A stretch of DNA of 37,381 nt, from IMG/VR virus record IMGVR_UViG_3300024273_000056, positions 1 through 37,381 of that record; one strand, given 5' to 3'. The DNA is from a virus. A program made the translations under genes and the position numbers. The notes below the pieces were generated by a model that was not told the DNA's origin, did not search any database, and was given only the letters and a program-made list of their open reading frames with translations. Positions 517-6,542 of this stretch are shown here, in pieces. The number at the start of each line of letters is the position of its first letter. The first letter of the stretch is position 1.

Positions 517-1044
517 ATGATGTTCACACCTAGTCAACTCAAGGGTAGCAACGGCAAACCCAGAACTAAGAGTCTGTTCTATGAGCTAAGTTATGATGAC
601 CCGTCACTGTCGTTGTTCACGTTTAAGAGTGATGACATAGAGGCCCATGGTCAGCACTTCCTGTCCCTCCAGAAGTTATACCTAGCTCTAGCCCCTAATG
701 ATCCAACTGAATATGAGTTTGCTCAGGCAGTCTTTGGTTCATGGGACATCTGGCAGACCCTATCTCAGGCCCCTGTCATTAAGGTCCATGTGAGACGTTG
801 GCGTAATGAGGTAGAGGTTAAGATTAAGTCCGAGGCTATCCGAGCTATAGCTACCGAGATGAAAGAGGGTGGTCGTAGTTCCTTCAGTGCAGCTAAGCTC
901 CTGTTGGACAAAGGTTGGCTAGACAAGGAGTCAGCCACCATAGCTAAGACTAAGTTAAAAGCTAAAGAAACAGATGATCAGAACAAAGAAGCCTTAGCCC
1001 TTTTGTCAGAGGATGCTGAGAGGCTAGGTATCAAACTAAACTAA
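517..1044 (+). CDS. Terminase small subunit (probable)
   Basis: A 175-aa soluble protein at the head of the late block. The C-terminal third (about residues 115-160) contains a segment resembling T7-type small terminases, with FSAAKLLLDKGW followed by a charged helix. The N-terminal half shows no motif I recognise. Small terminases bind the DNA packaging site and recruit the large subunit. Here the large subunit gene lies almost 4 kb away, beyond the tail-appendage genes. Two ATG codons stand in tandem at 517 and 520, and the nearest purine-rich site (GAGGAAG, 498-504) is 12 nt or more upstream. The assignment rests on local similarity and position; a regulatory DNA-binding protein is the main alternative. 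Confidence 0.6.
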   Translation: MMFTPSQLKGSNGKPRTKSLFYELSYDDPSLSLFTFKSDDIEAHGQHFLSLQKLYLALAPNDPTEYEFAQAVFGSWDIWQTLSQAPVIKVHVRRWRNEVEVKIKSEAIRAIATEMKEGGRSSFSAAKLLLDKGWLDKESATIAKTKLKAKETDDQNKEALALLSEDAERLGIKLN

Positions 1045-1057
1045 AGGGTTACCCACA

Positions 1058-2365
1058 ATGGCTAAGAAACCAACGTTAAGTACCATAGCCTCAGGTTATG
1101 CGTCTAACACCACATTGAACAGTAACTTCGAAGCGCTGAGAGATGCCCTCGATAATACTTTGTCATTGGACGGTAGTACCCCAAATGCTATGGGTGCCGA
1201 CCTTGACTTGAACGGTAACAACATCATAGGTGCCACAGGTCTTACCGTCAACGGTACTGACTACCTAGCCGATGTTACAGCAGCTAAGGCAGCAGCACTA
1301 GCTGCACAGGCAGCAGCTGAACTAGCTGAGACAAATGCTGAGACATCAGAGACTAATGCGAGTTCCTCCCAGACAGCTTCAGCATCAAGTGCAACAGCTG
1401 CATCAAGTAGTGCAACAGCTGCACAAACAGCTGAGACCAATGCTGAACTAGCTGAAACAGGTGCAGCAGCATCAGCTGCCACAGCTACAACAAAAGCTAA
1501 CACAGCTACAACCAAGGCATCTGAGGCATCAGCTTCAGCCACTAACGCAGCCACAAGTGAAAGTAATGCAGCTACCTCAGCAACTAGCTCAGCCACATCA
1601 GCTACTGCATCAGAGACAGCTAAGACAGCATCAGAGGCAGCTAAGGATGCAGCCCTTGCAGCTTTAGATTCTTTCGATGATCGTTACCTAGGACAGAAAG
1701 CTACAGACCCTACCTTAGATAATGATGGTAATGCATTGATTGCAGGTGCCCTGTACTTCAATTCCACAGATGATGTCATGAAGGTATATGAGGGTTCCGT
1801 TTGGGTTGCAGCATATGCTTCCTTGTCGGGTGCTCTGCTTTCGGTTAATAATCTTTCTGACGTCGCAGATACTACCGCCTCAAGGACTAACCTAGGTTTA
1901 GGTACAGCAGCCACCACAGCCTCCTCAGCCTATGCTACAGCTGCTCAAGGTACACTTGCTGACACAGCTACCCAACCAGCTGACTTAGGCACAGCCGCAG
2001 CTACCGCAGCAACTGACTATGCAACAGCAGCACAGGGTGTCAAGGCGGATGCCTCCGTGCAGGCCACAGCCACCACAGGCCAAGCTAATCTTCCCTCAGG
2101 TACAACAGCACAGAGAACTGTAACTCCAGCTACTGGTGCCTTACGGTTTAACTCAACTGATGTATCCTTTGAGGGTTACAACGGTACTGAGTGGGGTTCC
2201 ATCGGTGGCGGAGCAGCTGACGGTATCTTCTATGAGAATGAACAGAACGTGACCTCCAACTACACAGTTGTAGCTACTAAGAATGCTATGACTGCAGGGC
2301 CTGTCACAATCGCAAGTGGGGTCTCAGTTACAATTGAAACAGGCGGAAGGTGGGTCGTGCTATGA
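1058..2365 (+). CDS. Tail fibre-like protein with Ala-rich coiled stalk
   Basis: A 435-aa structural protein. The N-terminus (about 1-70) carries the phage appendage signature ending DLDLNGNNIIGA, often seen as a virion attachment domain. Residues about 73-205 are an Ala/Ser/Thr/Glu-rich repeat stretch with recurring AETNAE and ATAAS units, typical of trimeric fibre stalks such as the lambda side tail fibre. A conserved block follows (FDDRYLGQKATDPTLDNDG, near 210) and then YFNSTDDVMKVYEGSVWV. The C-terminus ends in a short beta-rich domain with the phage tail ending ETGGRWVVL. The start follows AAAGGG. Its TGA overlaps the next ATG. It probably forms an adsorption fibre, and the repeat region is a natural site of length variation. 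Confidence 0.8.
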   Translation: MAKKPTLSTIASGYASNTTLNSNFEALRDALDNTLSLDGSTPNAMGADLDLNGNNIIGATGLTVNGTDYLADVTAAKAAALAAQAAAELAETNAETSETNASSSQTASASSATAASSSATAAQTAETNAELAETGAAASAATATTKANTATTKASEASASATNAATSESNAATSATSSATSATASETAKTASEAAKDAALAALDSFDDRYLGQKATDPTLDNDGNALIAGALYFNSTDDVMKVYEGSVWVAAYASLSGALLSVNNLSDVADTTASRTNLGLGTAATTASSAYATAAQGTLADTATQPADLGTAAATAATDYATAAQGVKADASVQATATTGQANLPSGTTAQRTVTPATGALRFNSTDVSFEGYNGTEWGSIGGGAADGIFYENEQNVTSNYTVVATKNAMTAGPVTIASGVSVTIETGGRWVVL

Positions 2366-2433
2366 GCATTGTATTAAACGGATCAACGGGTATTACCACA
2401 CCTGACACATGGCCACAGGAGCCTTCAGCATGA
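2362..2433 (+). pseudogene. 23-codon remnant of a tail-appendage N-terminus
   Basis: This ORF begins MSIVLNGSTGITTPD, a recognisable N-terminus of phage tail-fibre proteins, then stops after 23 codons. Its ATG overlaps the preceding stop, and its TGA overlaps the next gene's ATG at 2430. It is therefore tied by coupling at both ends. Compared with the related sequence near 3587, one A is missing around 2417. Restoring it would join this ORF in frame to the 373-aa protein downstream. It is either a truncated gene kept for coupling or one half of a frameshifted gene. Confidence 0.55.
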
Positions 2434-2434
2434 G
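2401..2434 (+). repeat. Direct repeat seam, copy 1 (SD + start codon)
   Basis: This stretch recurs at 3565-3605. The core atggccaca(a)ggagccttca(g/a)catgag differs by one indel and one substitution. Copy 1 also lacks six bases further left. Each copy holds a strong Shine-Dalgarno sequence exactly 8 nt before the ATG of a tail-appendage gene. The two copies bracket the 373-aa gene. Confidence 0.8.
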
Positions 2435-3551
2435 TAAGATAACCCTTACACCCAACGCCGCAGGCACAGGTACATTTACCCTAGCCTCCCCCAACAGCAA
2501 TACAAACCGAACCCTTACCCTGCCTGACAGTGCAGGTGAGTTGTTGACCTCTGGAAGCACCTTGTCATCAGCCAATCTTACAGGTGCCTTACCTGCTATT
2601 GATGGGTCATCTTTGACGGGCCTCACAGCAGGGGCATCCGTACAAGACGTAAACACCTTATGGCTGGAAGTAGCTCAGACTAGCAACCGTGTCACAAATA
2701 TGATTGATGGTGTAGTAGACAGCTATGGTGCGTCTACTGGTGTTGACACACTTTTAAGTACGTCCCTATCCTTTGCAGGTTCTGGTAACATCACGAGGAC
2801 ATCTGGTAGTCTTCTAACACCCACAAGCATGACATCCAACACAGCCCCAACCCCCTATGTTGCATCTCTCAGCAACTCGGCAACTACTGCATACGAACTG
2901 TTTGATGGCACCACTTCCTATGAGGAAACCCCAACGGGTGGCTGGGCTAAGATTGACCTTGGCACTTCTGCGGAAGTTTCTTCTTACTCTATGACTGCTG
3001 GAGTAAACACTACAACATACTCTTGGAAGTCTTGGACTTTCCAAGGGTCGAATAACGACTCCACATGGACAACCCTTGACACCCAGACTAACTATGTATG
3101 GACTGTGGCCATAGGTGTCCCAGTTGTGTTTAGTTGTACAGCAGGGACTTACAGATACTTGAGGTGGTCCCCTACTGCAAACGGTGGTGTTGCGGCTTAC
3201 TCACAAGAACTCGCAGCTTATGAAACTCCACCAGCCGTATTGAGCTACACAGTTATCTCCAACGCCTCTACCGCAGACGCAGTACCTACCAGTGCCGTGG
3301 TTGGCGTTCAGGCTACGGGAACCAATACACTGAACACTGACTTGATTGTTTATGCCAGTCGTGATGACGGGACCACATGGACAGCAGGCACCCTAGCACA
3401 GGTGTACACAGTCGCAGGAGGAGTTATCTATTATGAGTCAGCTGAGATTGACATATCTGGACAACCTTCAGGCACTACTATGAGATACAAGGTTTATGCC
3501 GATAGTGACTTTGTGACAGAAATCAATGCAACCCTATTCAAGTGGGGTTGA
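2430..3551 (+). CDS. Tail appendage protein with discoidin-like glycan-binding domain
   Basis: A 373-aa protein. The N-terminal MSKITLTPNAAGTG type, up to about residue 65 (ending in LPAIDGSSLTGL), is a common virion-anchoring segment in marine phage fibres. Residues about 135-266 look like an F5/8C (discoidin, CBM32-like) domain. The order is YELFDG, GGWAKIDLG, SWTFQGSNNDSTWTTLD and YRYLRW, the hallmarks of that beta-sandwich fold. The tail (270-373) is another beta-rich domain. I chose ATG 2430 because AGGAG lies 8 nt upstream; an in-frame ATG at 2409 lacks a site. The gene is bracketed by the direct repeat and may be an exchanged cassette. Likely role: binding a surface sugar during adsorption. 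Confidence 0.7.
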   Translation: MSKITLTPNAAGTGTFTLASPNSNTNRTLTLPDSAGELLTSGSTLSSANLTGALPAIDGSSLTGLTAGASVQDVNTLWLEVAQTSNRVTNMIDGVVDSYGASTGVDTLLSTSLSFAGSGNITRTSGSLLTPTSMTSNTAPTPYVASLSNSATTAYELFDGTTSYEETPTGGWAKIDLGTSAEVSSYSMTAGVNTTTYSWKSWTFQGSNNDSTWTTLDTQTNYVWTVAIGVPVVFSCTAGTYRYLRWSPTANGGVAAYSQELAAYETPPAVLSYTVISNASTADAVPTSAVVGVQATGTNTLNTDLIVYASRDDGTTWTAGTLAQVYTVAGGVIYYESAEIDISGQPSGTTMRYKVYADSDFVTEINATLFKWG

Positions 3552-3564
3552 GGGTGCAGGTTTC

Positions 3565-3605
3565 CCTGACACAATCACATGGCCACAAGGAGCCTTCAAC
3601 ATGAG
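3565..3605 (+). repeat. Direct repeat seam, copy 2 (SD + start codon)
   Basis: Second copy of the element at 2401-2434, here with AAGGAG (3587-3592) 8 nt before the ATG at 3601. It lies in the 49-nt gap after the discoidin-domain gene. The presence of both copies suggests recombination or duplication at gene borders rather than selection on protein sequence, since the two copies are read in different frames relative to the upstream genes. Confidence 0.8.
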
Positions 3606-3891
3606 CACCATAAAAGTAGATACAATCACGGATGAAGCTGGCACAGGTGCCCCTGACTTTCCTAATGGTATTGGCGTAACAGGCACTGTGACAGCCACAT
3701 CCTTCGCAGGGGATGGCTCAGCTTTGACTGGCCTTCCCTCTACGTTTACTTCTGTCAGTGTAGGTACTTGGACTGTCTCCGAAACTGCTGGGGTTCTGTT
3801 GTTCGCCACAGGTGGTGTCAATAAGATGAAACTAGATGCCTCTGGCAACATTACAACAGTTGGTGACATCACAGCATTTGGGACGGTCTAA
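3601..3891 (+). CDS. Short tail appendage protein
   Basis: A 96-aa protein starting MSTIKVDTITDEAGTGAPDFP, a widespread N-terminal module of phage tail-fibre proteins. A beta-rich segment and the repeat-like ATSFAGDGSALTGLP follow; in other phages the latter links anchor and receptor-binding parts. It stops early, with no receptor-binding domain, so it may be an adaptor or a truncated fibre. The start at 3601 has an ideal Shine-Dalgarno; longer in-frame starts upstream would run through the repeat seam. Its TAA overlaps the next ATG (TAATG). Confidence 0.65.
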   Translation: MSTIKVDTITDEAGTGAPDFPNGIGVTGTVTATSFAGDGSALTGLPSTFTSVSVGTWTVSETAGVLLFATGGVNKMKLDASGNITTVGDITAFGTV

Positions 3892-4793
3892 TGCCTCTAC
3901 CTTCGACAGGCTCTATAAGTTTTTCCGCAATCCAGACTGAGTTTGGAGGAAGTCCCCCTATCTCAGTATCTGAGTATTATGGTAAGAGTAGTCTTCCAGC
4001 ATCAGGGCTTATCGGGTTAAGTAACTTCCGTGGAACTTCTAACGTGGGTTACACCCTTGTAGCAGAGGCGGGTCCAGCAACTATCGTCAATTCAGCTTAC
4101 GCCCAGCAACCTGTGCTGATGCCAAGTGGTATTCAGGCGGGGGACATAATCCTAGTAACCCAGTTCAATGCGATGACAACGGATCAAGGTTGGGGTGGTG
4201 GTGGTCCTGCTGGGTGGGGTACATCGTCAGGATTTACTCAACTGGGCCATCAAGGGCAGTACCATACCCGCAATAACAACACTTGGTCTCAAACGTCCAT
4301 GACTGACTTGCGACTGAGCTTTAAGATTGCTACAGGAAATGAAGGGGCTACAAGTATAACTGGGTTCACTGGTGCGAACGCAACCGTATCTGGTGTTTCT
4401 AGGTCTAGCCGTTGTGATAGAGCTAGTATTGTGAGTGTTTTACGGCCTCTGCACTCCACTTCGGGAACCGTTGACCAAGTTACTGGGGAAGACGATGCAA
4501 ACACTTTGAAAGCAGACACAACACTTTCTACTGATACCGTGACCCTTACAGCACCGTCAGCTGGTCTTTCGATAGGGGTCGCCCTACAGGCCAGCTACAA
4601 TAGCTCCAATCTAAACTTATCTGCAAACGCTGGAACTGTTTTGCAGTCTAAGGCGTTCAGTGGGGTAGATGATTCAGCCAACTATTACAAGTTCAAACTC
4701 TTTACCGTTGAAGCTGGTGAATCCCTTACCACGACAAGTGATAATACCGCAGGTTCACACATAACTTACACATCCCTACTTTGTATTTCATAA
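3891..4793 (+). CDS. Tail appendage or tip protein
   Basis: A 300-aa protein. Its first 50 residues (MPLPSTGSISFSAIQTEFGG, then ISVSEYYG and LSNFRG) are a conserved phage module found at the start of many marine phage tail proteins. The remainder (about 55-300) is Gly/Ser/Thr-rich and beta-strand-like, with GWGGGGPAGWG near residue 100. I do not recognise an enzymatic motif. It is coupled to the previous gene by TAATG and is the last large member of the appendage array. A role in receptor recognition is inferred from position and N-terminal type. Confidence 0.6.
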   Translation: MPLPSTGSISFSAIQTEFGGSPPISVSEYYGKSSLPASGLIGLSNFRGTSNVGYTLVAEAGPATIVNSAYAQQPVLMPSGIQAGDIILVTQFNAMTTDQGWGGGGPAGWGTSSGFTQLGHQGQYHTRNNNTWSQTSMTDLRLSFKIATGNEGATSITGFTGANATVSGVSRSSRCDRASIVSVLRPLHSTSGTVDQVTGEDDANTLKADTTLSTDTVTLTAPSAGLSIGVALQASYNSSNLNLSANAGTVLQSKAFSGVDDSANYYKFKLFTVEAGESLTTTSDNTAGSHITYTSLLCIS

Positions 4794-4803
4794 GGAGAAA
4801 AAT

Positions 4804-4938
4804 ATGCTACCTAAATTAGCTTCAGGAGATACCACGGCTTTTATACTGTGGCTTGCAGAACAAAGAGGTATTACTGTTGAAGAGGCTCTAACTGCTTCCA
4901 AAAGTGAAAAGGCTGAGACACTAAAGATAACCAGATAA
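4804..4938 (+). CDS. Small hypothetical protein, 44 aa
   Basis: The ORF starts with ATG 4804 behind a strong AAGGAG (4792-4797) and runs to TAA at 4936. The product has a hydrophobic-amphipathic stretch (FILWLAEQRG) and a charged helix (VEEALTASKSEKAETL). It follows the appendage genes by 10 nt and precedes the large terminase. I do not recognise it. The ribosome-binding site and spacing argue that it is translated. Confidence 0.55.
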   Translation: MLPKLASGDTTAFILWLAEQRGITVEEALTASKSEKAETLKITR

Positions 4939-5006: not shown

Positions 5007-6542
5007 ATGGCATCTATAGACCAAATCAGACAAGCAGCAGAGACTGACCTAGTTACCTTCATCAGGCTCATAGCTCCTGAACAGGTCCTAGGCCAATGCC
5101 ATGAAGACGTTTGTAATTGGTGGGATCGGGAAGGTTCCAAGTCTCACCAGCTACTCCTCTTCCCTCGTGACCATGGTAAGTCTCGTCTTGTAGCCTATCG
5201 TGTAGCTTGGGAACTAACCAAAGACCCAACCCTACGTATCCTCTACATCTCAGCCACAGCTAACCTAGCTGAGAAACAACTAGGGTTTATCAAGAGTATC
5301 TTAACCTCTGAGGTATATAGTCGTTACTGGCCTGATCATGTTCACCCTGAAGATGGTAAACGGACACGGTGGACTAACTCAGAGATCATGCTGGACCACC
5401 CAGCCCGTAAGAAAGAAAACGTACGTGACCCTTCTGTTTTCACTGGCGGGCTTACAACCTCTCTCACTGGTATGCACTGTGATATTGCAGTTCTAGATGA
5501 CATCGTTGTTTATGAGAATGCCTACACAGGTGAGGGCAGAAACAAAGTAAAGAGCCAATACTCTCTTTTGTCATCCATTGAGGGTGCCGAAGCTAGGGAG
5601 TGGGTAGTAGGTACCCGTTACCACCCAGCTGACTTGTATAACGATCTACTCCAGATGGAGGAAGACATATACGATGACGATGGTAACAAGGTAGGTGAAG
5701 AGACTATCTATGAGATCTTTGAACGTCCAGTAGAAGACAACGGTGATGGTACAGGTCAAATGTTATGGCCCCGTAGTCAACGTAAGGACGGTAAGTGGTT
5801 CGGGTTCGACCTGAGAGTACTAGCTAAGAAACGAGGACAGTACCTAGACAAGGGGCAGTTCCGTGCACAGTACTACAACGATCCTAGTGACCCTGACAAC
5901 GTACCTGTAGGTAGTGACAAGTTTCAGTACTTCGATCATAAGCACCTACGTCAAGATAACGGATACTGGTTCTACCGAGATAACAAGTTAAACGTATATG
6001 CAGCAGTTGACTTCGCATTTAGTTTATCTAAGAGAGCCGACTATACAGCTATCGTTGTCATTGGCATTGATGCTGACAACAACGTATACGTCTTAGACAT
6101 TGACCGCTTCAAGACAGATCGTATCTCTGACTACTTTGATCACATCTTCACGTTATCAACCAAGTGGTCCTTCCGTAAGATGCGGGCTGAGACAACCGTA
6201 GCTCAGGTAGCCATTGTTAAACAACTCAAGGAGCTAGTGAAGCAGCATGGCCTGTCACTGAGCATCGAAGAGTTCCGACCTAACAAACACCAAGGCAACA
6301 AACAGGAACGCATCTCAGCAGCCCTTGAGCCTCGTTATGACAACCTTAGTATGTGGCACTACCGTGGTGGCAACACCCAAATACTTGAGGAAGAGTTGTC
6401 ATCTCGTAACCCACCTCATGATGATGTCATTGATGCGTTGGCCTCAGTTGTGGACATGGCAATAAAACCATCACGTAACGTCCGTAGGGATCGTGATAAC
6501 GTGGTACAATTTAACAAAAGATTTGGTGGAGTTTCCTTCTAA
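5007..6542 (+). CDS. terL: Terminase large subunit
   Basis: A 511-aa DNA-packaging motor protein with an N-terminal ATPase and C-terminal nuclease. The Walker A-type loop is FPRDHGKS (about 52-59). Walker B is DIAVLDD (about 159-165), after which the ATP-coupling region follows. The RNase H-like nuclease begins at AAVDFAFS (Asp near 335), with DYTAIVVIGID behind it, and ends with PPHDDVIDALA near residue 470. The length and motif order fit T7 gp19-like terminases. The start has only a weak purine-rich site (ATAGG). The TAA overlaps the portal ATG. It couples ATP hydrolysis to pumping DNA into the prohead through the portal encoded next door. Confidence 0.93.
   Translation: MASIDQIRQAAETDLVTFIRLIAPEQVLGQCHEDVCNWWDREGSKSHQLLLFPRDHGKSRLVAYRVAWELTKDPTLRILYISATANLAEKQLGFIKSILTSEVYSRYWPDHVHPEDGKRTRWTNSEIMLDHPARKKENVRDPSVFTGGLTTSLTGMHCDIAVLDDIVVYENAYTGEGRNKVKSQYSLLSSIEGAEAREWVVGTRYHPADLYNDLLQMEEDIYDDDGNKVGEETIYEIFERPVEDNGDGTGQMLWPRSQRKDGKWFGFDLRVLAKKRGQYLDKGQFRAQYYNDPSDPDNVPVGSDKFQYFDHKHLRQDNGYWFYRDNKLNVYAAVDFAFSLSKRADYTAIVVIGIDADNNVYVLDIDRFKTDRISDYFDHIFTLSTKWSFRKMRAETTVAQVAIVKQLKELVKQHGLSLSIEEFRPNKHQGNKQERISAALEPRYDNLSMWHYRGGNTQILEEELSSRNPPHDDVIDALASVVDMAIKPSRNVRRDRDNVVQFNKRFGGVSF

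Follow-up and report, generated by a model that had tools for sequence, protein, structure and literature searches.

We propose, with high confidence, that the two copies of a short repeat, here called seams, that precede appendage genes in the fibre region of a cobavirus-like phage are the surviving 3' stumps of two lost tail-fibre assembly chaperone genes, and that in relatives the same chaperone end is the joint at which fibre modules are exchanged. This is the best explanation that we can offer, and it is built on the identity of the stumps, the positions of the junctions, the intact counterparts in relatives and the statistics of co-inheritance. The window, by which we mean the whole stretch of DNA analysed, is one 37-kb metagenomic contig of marine origin. 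Its nearest isolates by DNA are the Lentibacter phages ICBM1, ICBM2 and ICBM3, the Roseobacter phages CRP-5 and CRP-4 and the Celeribacter phage P12053L, all classed as Zobellviridae, Cobavirinae, and both homology and the gene order of the terminase, portal and fibre region, shared with ICBM1, ICBM2 and CRP-5, place the window in this subfamily. The fibre block sits between a 175-aa gene and the large terminase (Table 1), at the genome end that in cobaviruses holds a fibre region variable in gene count and composition, according to the available part of the published account (PMC6775973).

Table 1. Features of the fibre region, in window coordinates.
Feature	Position	Strand	Evidence
Upstream gene, left flank, 175 aa, small-terminase-like by position only	517..1044	+	phrog_8035, E=7.8e-35
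Fibre A, first appendage gene, N-terminal anchor	1058..2365	+	phrog_38058, phrog_22284 tail fiber protein
23-codon mini-ORF, MSIVLNGSTGITTPDTWPQEPSA-stop	2362..2433	+	Translation; alignment to both L235 parts
Probable 5' end of lost second appendage gene (MSIVLNGSTGITTPD...)	2362..2407	+	blastn homology to L235, L244 and L253 stops at 2407
Probable chaperone gene 1 stump, last codons TWPQEPSA-stop	2408..2433	+	Shine-Dalgarno AGGAG at 2417-2421; chaperone-end alignments
Gene B, appendage protein with discoidin (F5/8 type C) domain	2430..3551	+	Pfam matches; homologues in L245, L251
Probable chaperone gene 2 stump, AGFPDTITWPQ/EPST-stop	3556..3604	+	Shine-Dalgarno AGGAG at 3588-3592; aligns to chaperone ends
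Gene C, short anchor-like protein, 96 aa	3601..3891	+	Syntenic homologue directly 3' of ICBM1 chaperone 2
Gene D, appendage protein	3891..4793	+	Syntenic homologue in ICBM1/ICBM3
Large terminase, right flank	5007..6542	+	97% identical in L002-L005; homologue annotated terminase in ICBM2, CRP-5

Seam 1 (CACATGGCCAC-AGGAGCCTTCAGCATGAG, ending in the ATG at 2430) and seam 2 (CACATGGCCACAAGGAGCCTTCAACATGAG, ending in the ATG at 3601) match at 29 of 31 aligned bases, with one A inserted in seam 2. Their local score of 27 was not reached in any of 2000 dinucleotide shuffles of both regions (maximum 18), and each carries an AGGAG 8 nt 5' of its ATG, so that the repeat and its Shine-Dalgarno signals are real and lie where the original prediction had put them. 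Invertible fibre segments of the Gin/Cin type were considered and rejected because the copies are direct repeats, with no third copy in the window on either strand, and no phase switching was seen. An exact DNA scan of viral contigs for the seam gave no match because relatives differ at a few bases, and a coupled-pattern scan of genome contigs also gave none; the 41 matches of a seam pattern scan are a subset defined by codon register, the spacer of the pattern being one base short.

What had been taken for a free-standing repeat is recognisable in relatives as the 3' end of a chaperone gene, in genomes where fibre genes commonly have their own chaperone gene behind them. Specifically, FP....WP..P is in relatives the C-terminus of tail-fibre assembly chaperones, whose last codons read FP..xWPQEPxx-stop, and the chaperones of ICBM1 and ICBM2 match PF16778 with E=2e-17 to 6e-24. 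In the coupled class of these genes the chaperone stop and the ATG of the following fibre gene share bases (ATGA), and the last codons contain the Shine-Dalgarno, AGGAG falling within those for Gln-Glu. The stumps in the window are homologous to the 3' ends of PF16778 chaperone genes at the syntenic position, and from these alignments each seam is best read as the last 8-15 codons of such a gene together with the start, overlapping by ATGA, of the appendage gene behind it. In ICBM1, ICBM2 and metagenomic relatives the seam positions are occupied by complete chaperone genes. The order in ICBM1 is fibre A, MAITLDG gene, chaperone 1, MSKIS gene, chaperone 2, short gene, MVIPTGT gene and terminase; that in the window is fibre A, 23-codon mini-ORF, MSKIT gene (B), stump, short gene (C), MPLPSTG gene (D) and terminase, which is the ICBM1 order minus both chaperones. 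Within the window no complete chaperone domain was found with PF16778 (the control genomes likewise gave no match), and a custom chaperone model also found none there, against 138 matches in the 255 sequences searched.

The best-conserved core of the seam takes in the Shine-Dalgarno and ATGAG, as it would if the likeness were only a ribosome-binding and start region held constant by translation selection, with no gene history behind it. We regard that reading as highly improbable and already contradicted, since homology is seen for 24-45 bp on the 5' side of the old chaperone stop and for 70-97 bp on its 3' side, identity is 78-94% in the best matches and the matched junctions in relatives are coding on both sides.

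Approached from either side, the break that created seam 1 falls at base 2407. In blastn comparisons the homology of the fibre A end and the start of a second appendage gene (MSIVLNG) to L235, L244 and L253 stops at this base, and the chaperone-end homology of 10 distinct segments starts there (at 2406 in one of them) and continues to about 2527. Of these matches the best, to L235, covers 122 bp at 94% and spans -24 to +97 relative to the chaperone stop, and the chaperone/collar junction of ICBM1 (E=1e-8 in the phage collection search) has the same start at seam 1. L235 holds both parts of junction 1 with ~855 bp between them, in which the remainder of a 224-aa appendage protein and a chaperone of 87 aa are encoded, an arrangement from which the mini-ORF, overlapping both neighbouring genes by ATGA, is best explained as an in-frame deletion fusion of the lost second appendage gene start to the lost chaperone end. 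Junction 2 lies at about 3552-3557, directly 3' of gene B, the discoidin gene: chaperone-end homology begins at 3556/3557, ~5 nt past the gene B stop, with matches to L253 (81% over 117 bp) and ICBM2 (78% over 116 bp), whose chaperone/fibre junction aligns to seam 2 with E=9e-17. Stump 2 is frameshifted by one extra A, which breaks the old chaperone frame, so that it no longer codes for a chaperone end. The junctions were read from one metagenomic contig; assembly collapse between repeated chaperone ends is thought unlikely, since the junction 1 partners share only ~2-3 bp at the break and the sequence before stump 2 is gene B, not chaperone. Two high-identity copies in one genome might also result from a local duplication that placed a copy of one appendage gene's start region before another. 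The genes differ 3' of ATGAG, and each seam finds its best match in the corresponding chaperone/fibre junction of other genomes, so that this origin, too, is contradicted and can be given very little credence.

The gene between the stumps has the discoidin-like domain that had been predicted for it, with F5/8 type C matches above the Pfam cut-offs (PF22633, E=1.3e-7; PF00754, E=1.2e-6). The start at 2409 given by the mechanical ORF call is probably unused, because relatives start at the ATG that overlaps the chaperone stop, equivalent to 2430. The tip belongs to a family ending in ..W[GSE]; homologues are full-length in L245 (48%) and discoidin-plus-tip in L251 (38%), and the genes that follow them encode chaperones of only 66 and 68 aa, respectively, from which most of the N-domain is absent. 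This tip type may therefore need little or no chaperone. We infer that gene B folds without one, and it is a candidate chaperone-independent receptor-binding protein. On the reverse strand of L251 (2832-3902) the discoidin and tip of gene B are carried on a gene-C-type anchor (MSKISVDAITDEAGTG); hence the same tip occurs on two different anchors. An AlphaFold model of gene B (mean pLDDT 47, three aligned sequences) was set aside. As to the genes downstream, a short gene ending GVNKMKLDASGN..GDITAFGTV followed immediately by a gene that starts MPLPS or MVIPTG is seen at 3601-4793 of the window, in L084 and in many of L088-L167, and the pair is recurrent in many viral contigs. The gap between gene D and the terminase holds a 44-codon ORF (4804-4938) with a strong AAGGAG start signal, for which no relative was found among the fetched loci.

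Stumps are also present in other genomes. L236 has a stump, DSFPNIITWPQEPLA-stop, behind an unrelated gene and just 5' of a gene that in L250 has an intact chaperone before it (118/140 identical across the junction region), and L040 (6109-6494) has a complete chaperone and, within ~20 bp of it, a second chaperone end that immediately precedes the large terminase. We propose that the stumps are probably kept because each provides the next gene with its ribosome-binding site: with that gene's Shine-Dalgarno in the last chaperone codons and the stop overlapping its ATG, the body of the chaperone gene is dispensable and the end is not. A Shine-Dalgarno-like motif is present in 22 of 27 ATGA-coupled chaperone ends versus 2 of 51 uncoupled ones, and translational coupling presumably operates at the ATGA overlaps. 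The retention argument draws on few cases, four stumps beside the 138 chaperone-domain matches in 255 sequences, and does not extend to the L040 stump, which precedes the terminase, is of the WPTKP type and is without an embedded Shine-Dalgarno. Stump 2 retains ~20 bp 5' of its Shine-Dalgarno, more than the ribosome-site argument requires, which a recent deletion would explain. Three of the four stumps start near Gly/Ser-Phe-Pro codons, a number too small to define a preferred break point.

The evidence for exchange comes from relatives and consists of statistical reassortment. For each of 78 distinct chaperone ends with flanks we tabulated the fibre gene upstream, the chaperone and the gene that follows, and 71 of the ends had an N-domain long enough to compare; this sample, gathered with C-terminal queries, is non-random, and related contigs account for some of the 71 pairs. 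Across these pairs the clusters of fibre tip and chaperone N-domain show an adjusted mutual information (AMI) of 0.725, with a maximum of 0.159 in 500 permutations, and a similar tip goes with a similar N-domain in 125 of 133 pairs. In the same 71 pairs no association with chaperone type was found for either the fibre anchor (AMI 0.06, permutation maximum 0.147) or the next gene (AMI 0.048, permutation maximum 0.133). DNA likeness across the chaperone stop reaches a median of 79 bp upstream and drops off on both sides. Co-inheritance of tip and N-domain, together with the likeness around the stop, points to the conserved chaperone C-terminal domain and the following start as the exchange joint. 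The natural cassette is the fibre tip plus its chaperone, rather than the single bracketed gene of the original prediction, and it is in relatives that the two are co-inherited, the window itself being without the chaperone part. The larger idea, that seams serve as swap points for fibre genes complete with expression signals, survives in part: the region bounded by the terminase genes is modular, the translation signals of each following gene lie within the seam, and exchange is supported across equivalent seams in relatives, but no event using the window's 31-bp copies was seen. Whole-block replacement also occurs between relatives with 94-97% identical flanking proteins (L168 on the left, where the 175-aa gene is 94% identical and the fibre block differs; L004 on the right), and the replaced block, rather than running from seam to seam, begins near codon 60 of fibre A and ends just short of the terminase. 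The fibre A anchor is common to many cobavirus-like relatives, its first ~60 codons being present in L168, L082, L083 and others. Where sequence is available, L168 and L002-L005 have a CRP-5-like fibre block, unlike that of the window.

These data bear on whether the seams are active 31-bp direct recombination repeats that excise or swap the discoidin gene and leave one working seam. If the copies recombined with each other, the ribosome site would be kept and gene C placed behind it; family-wide exchange at equivalent joints is strongly supported, and P12053L and L137 have fewer cassettes than ICBM1. We nevertheless consider such activity unlikely. The copies appear to be chaperone gene relics, the joint in relatives is longer than the seam, given its median upstream extent, and no loss of the bracketed gene by seam-to-seam recombination was seen, nor was any genome found in which that gene is precisely absent. 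Seam likeness is 0.847 within a genome versus 0.815 between genomes (permutation p=0.16), so that homogenisation within genomes is not significant; an earlier comparison had given a higher contrast with chaperone ends of another register mixed in. The two seams of the window, not significantly closer to each other than are seams across genomes, thus give no sign of mutual recombination.

The mechanism that we put forward is one of chaperone loss. It would start from the arrangement of relatives, in which a fibre gene has its own chaperone and the chaperone end carries the Shine-Dalgarno of the next gene. Loss of a coupled chaperone end would take away the next gene's ribosome site, and the body could go. 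One deletion would have fused the second appendage gene start to the chaperone 1 end, and a second event would have taken out all of chaperone 2 but the last ~15 codons. Across the family, the conserved C-domain of the chaperone and the following start would form the joint, with tip/N-domain pairs moving among anchors and positions.

Mosaic fibre genes are well known, and the location and cause of their joints have seldom been resolved. Here the joint would be a short gene end that belongs to the chaperone C-domain and at the same time serves the next fibre gene as ribosome-binding site, a dual role that would explain why a useless gene end outlasts the lost gene. Repeats at gene starts between fibres can also be footprints of past chaperone cassettes. 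More speculatively, the 3' end of the chaperone gene, with the Shine-Dalgarno inside it and the ATGA start, might be a standard connector of marine phage appendage operons, upstream of which any fibre/chaperone type could be inserted with the expression of the next gene undisturbed, and phages whose new tip needs no chaperone might shed the body and keep the connector as a recombination joint; we hold this general form only tentatively.

The cobavirus fibre region (ICBM1, ICBM2, P12053L, CRP-4/5) resembles that of the window in its place between terminase and genome end and in its variability, and the gene order of the window matches that of ICBM1, except that the window has lost both chaperones; the chaperone/fibre joint, the co-inheritance rule and the chaperone stumps are not described in the available part of the cobavirus account (PMC6775973). 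Pam3 gp25 and Mu Tfa have a variable fibre-binding N-domain and a conserved trimerizing C-domain (PMC9608196), and the chaperones of the relatives are built likewise, from a conserved C-domain and a variable N-domain that tracks the fibre tip. The stumps align with the final codons of such PF16778 (Phage_tail_APC/Tfa-like) genes, whereas the window keeps only the last 8-15 codons and encodes no chaperone protein. In the Alteromonas phages A5, V22 and P24, fibre-chaperone host-recognition modules are exchanged, and the A5 fibre functions without its chaperone (PMC10579305). Fibre and cognate chaperone travel together there as they do in the relatives of the window, and A5 offers a precedent for chaperone loss; however, the Alteromonas phages keep the chaperone gene, while those of the window appear to have been deleted, and in the present case the joint is resolved to the chaperone C-domain and the start of the next gene.
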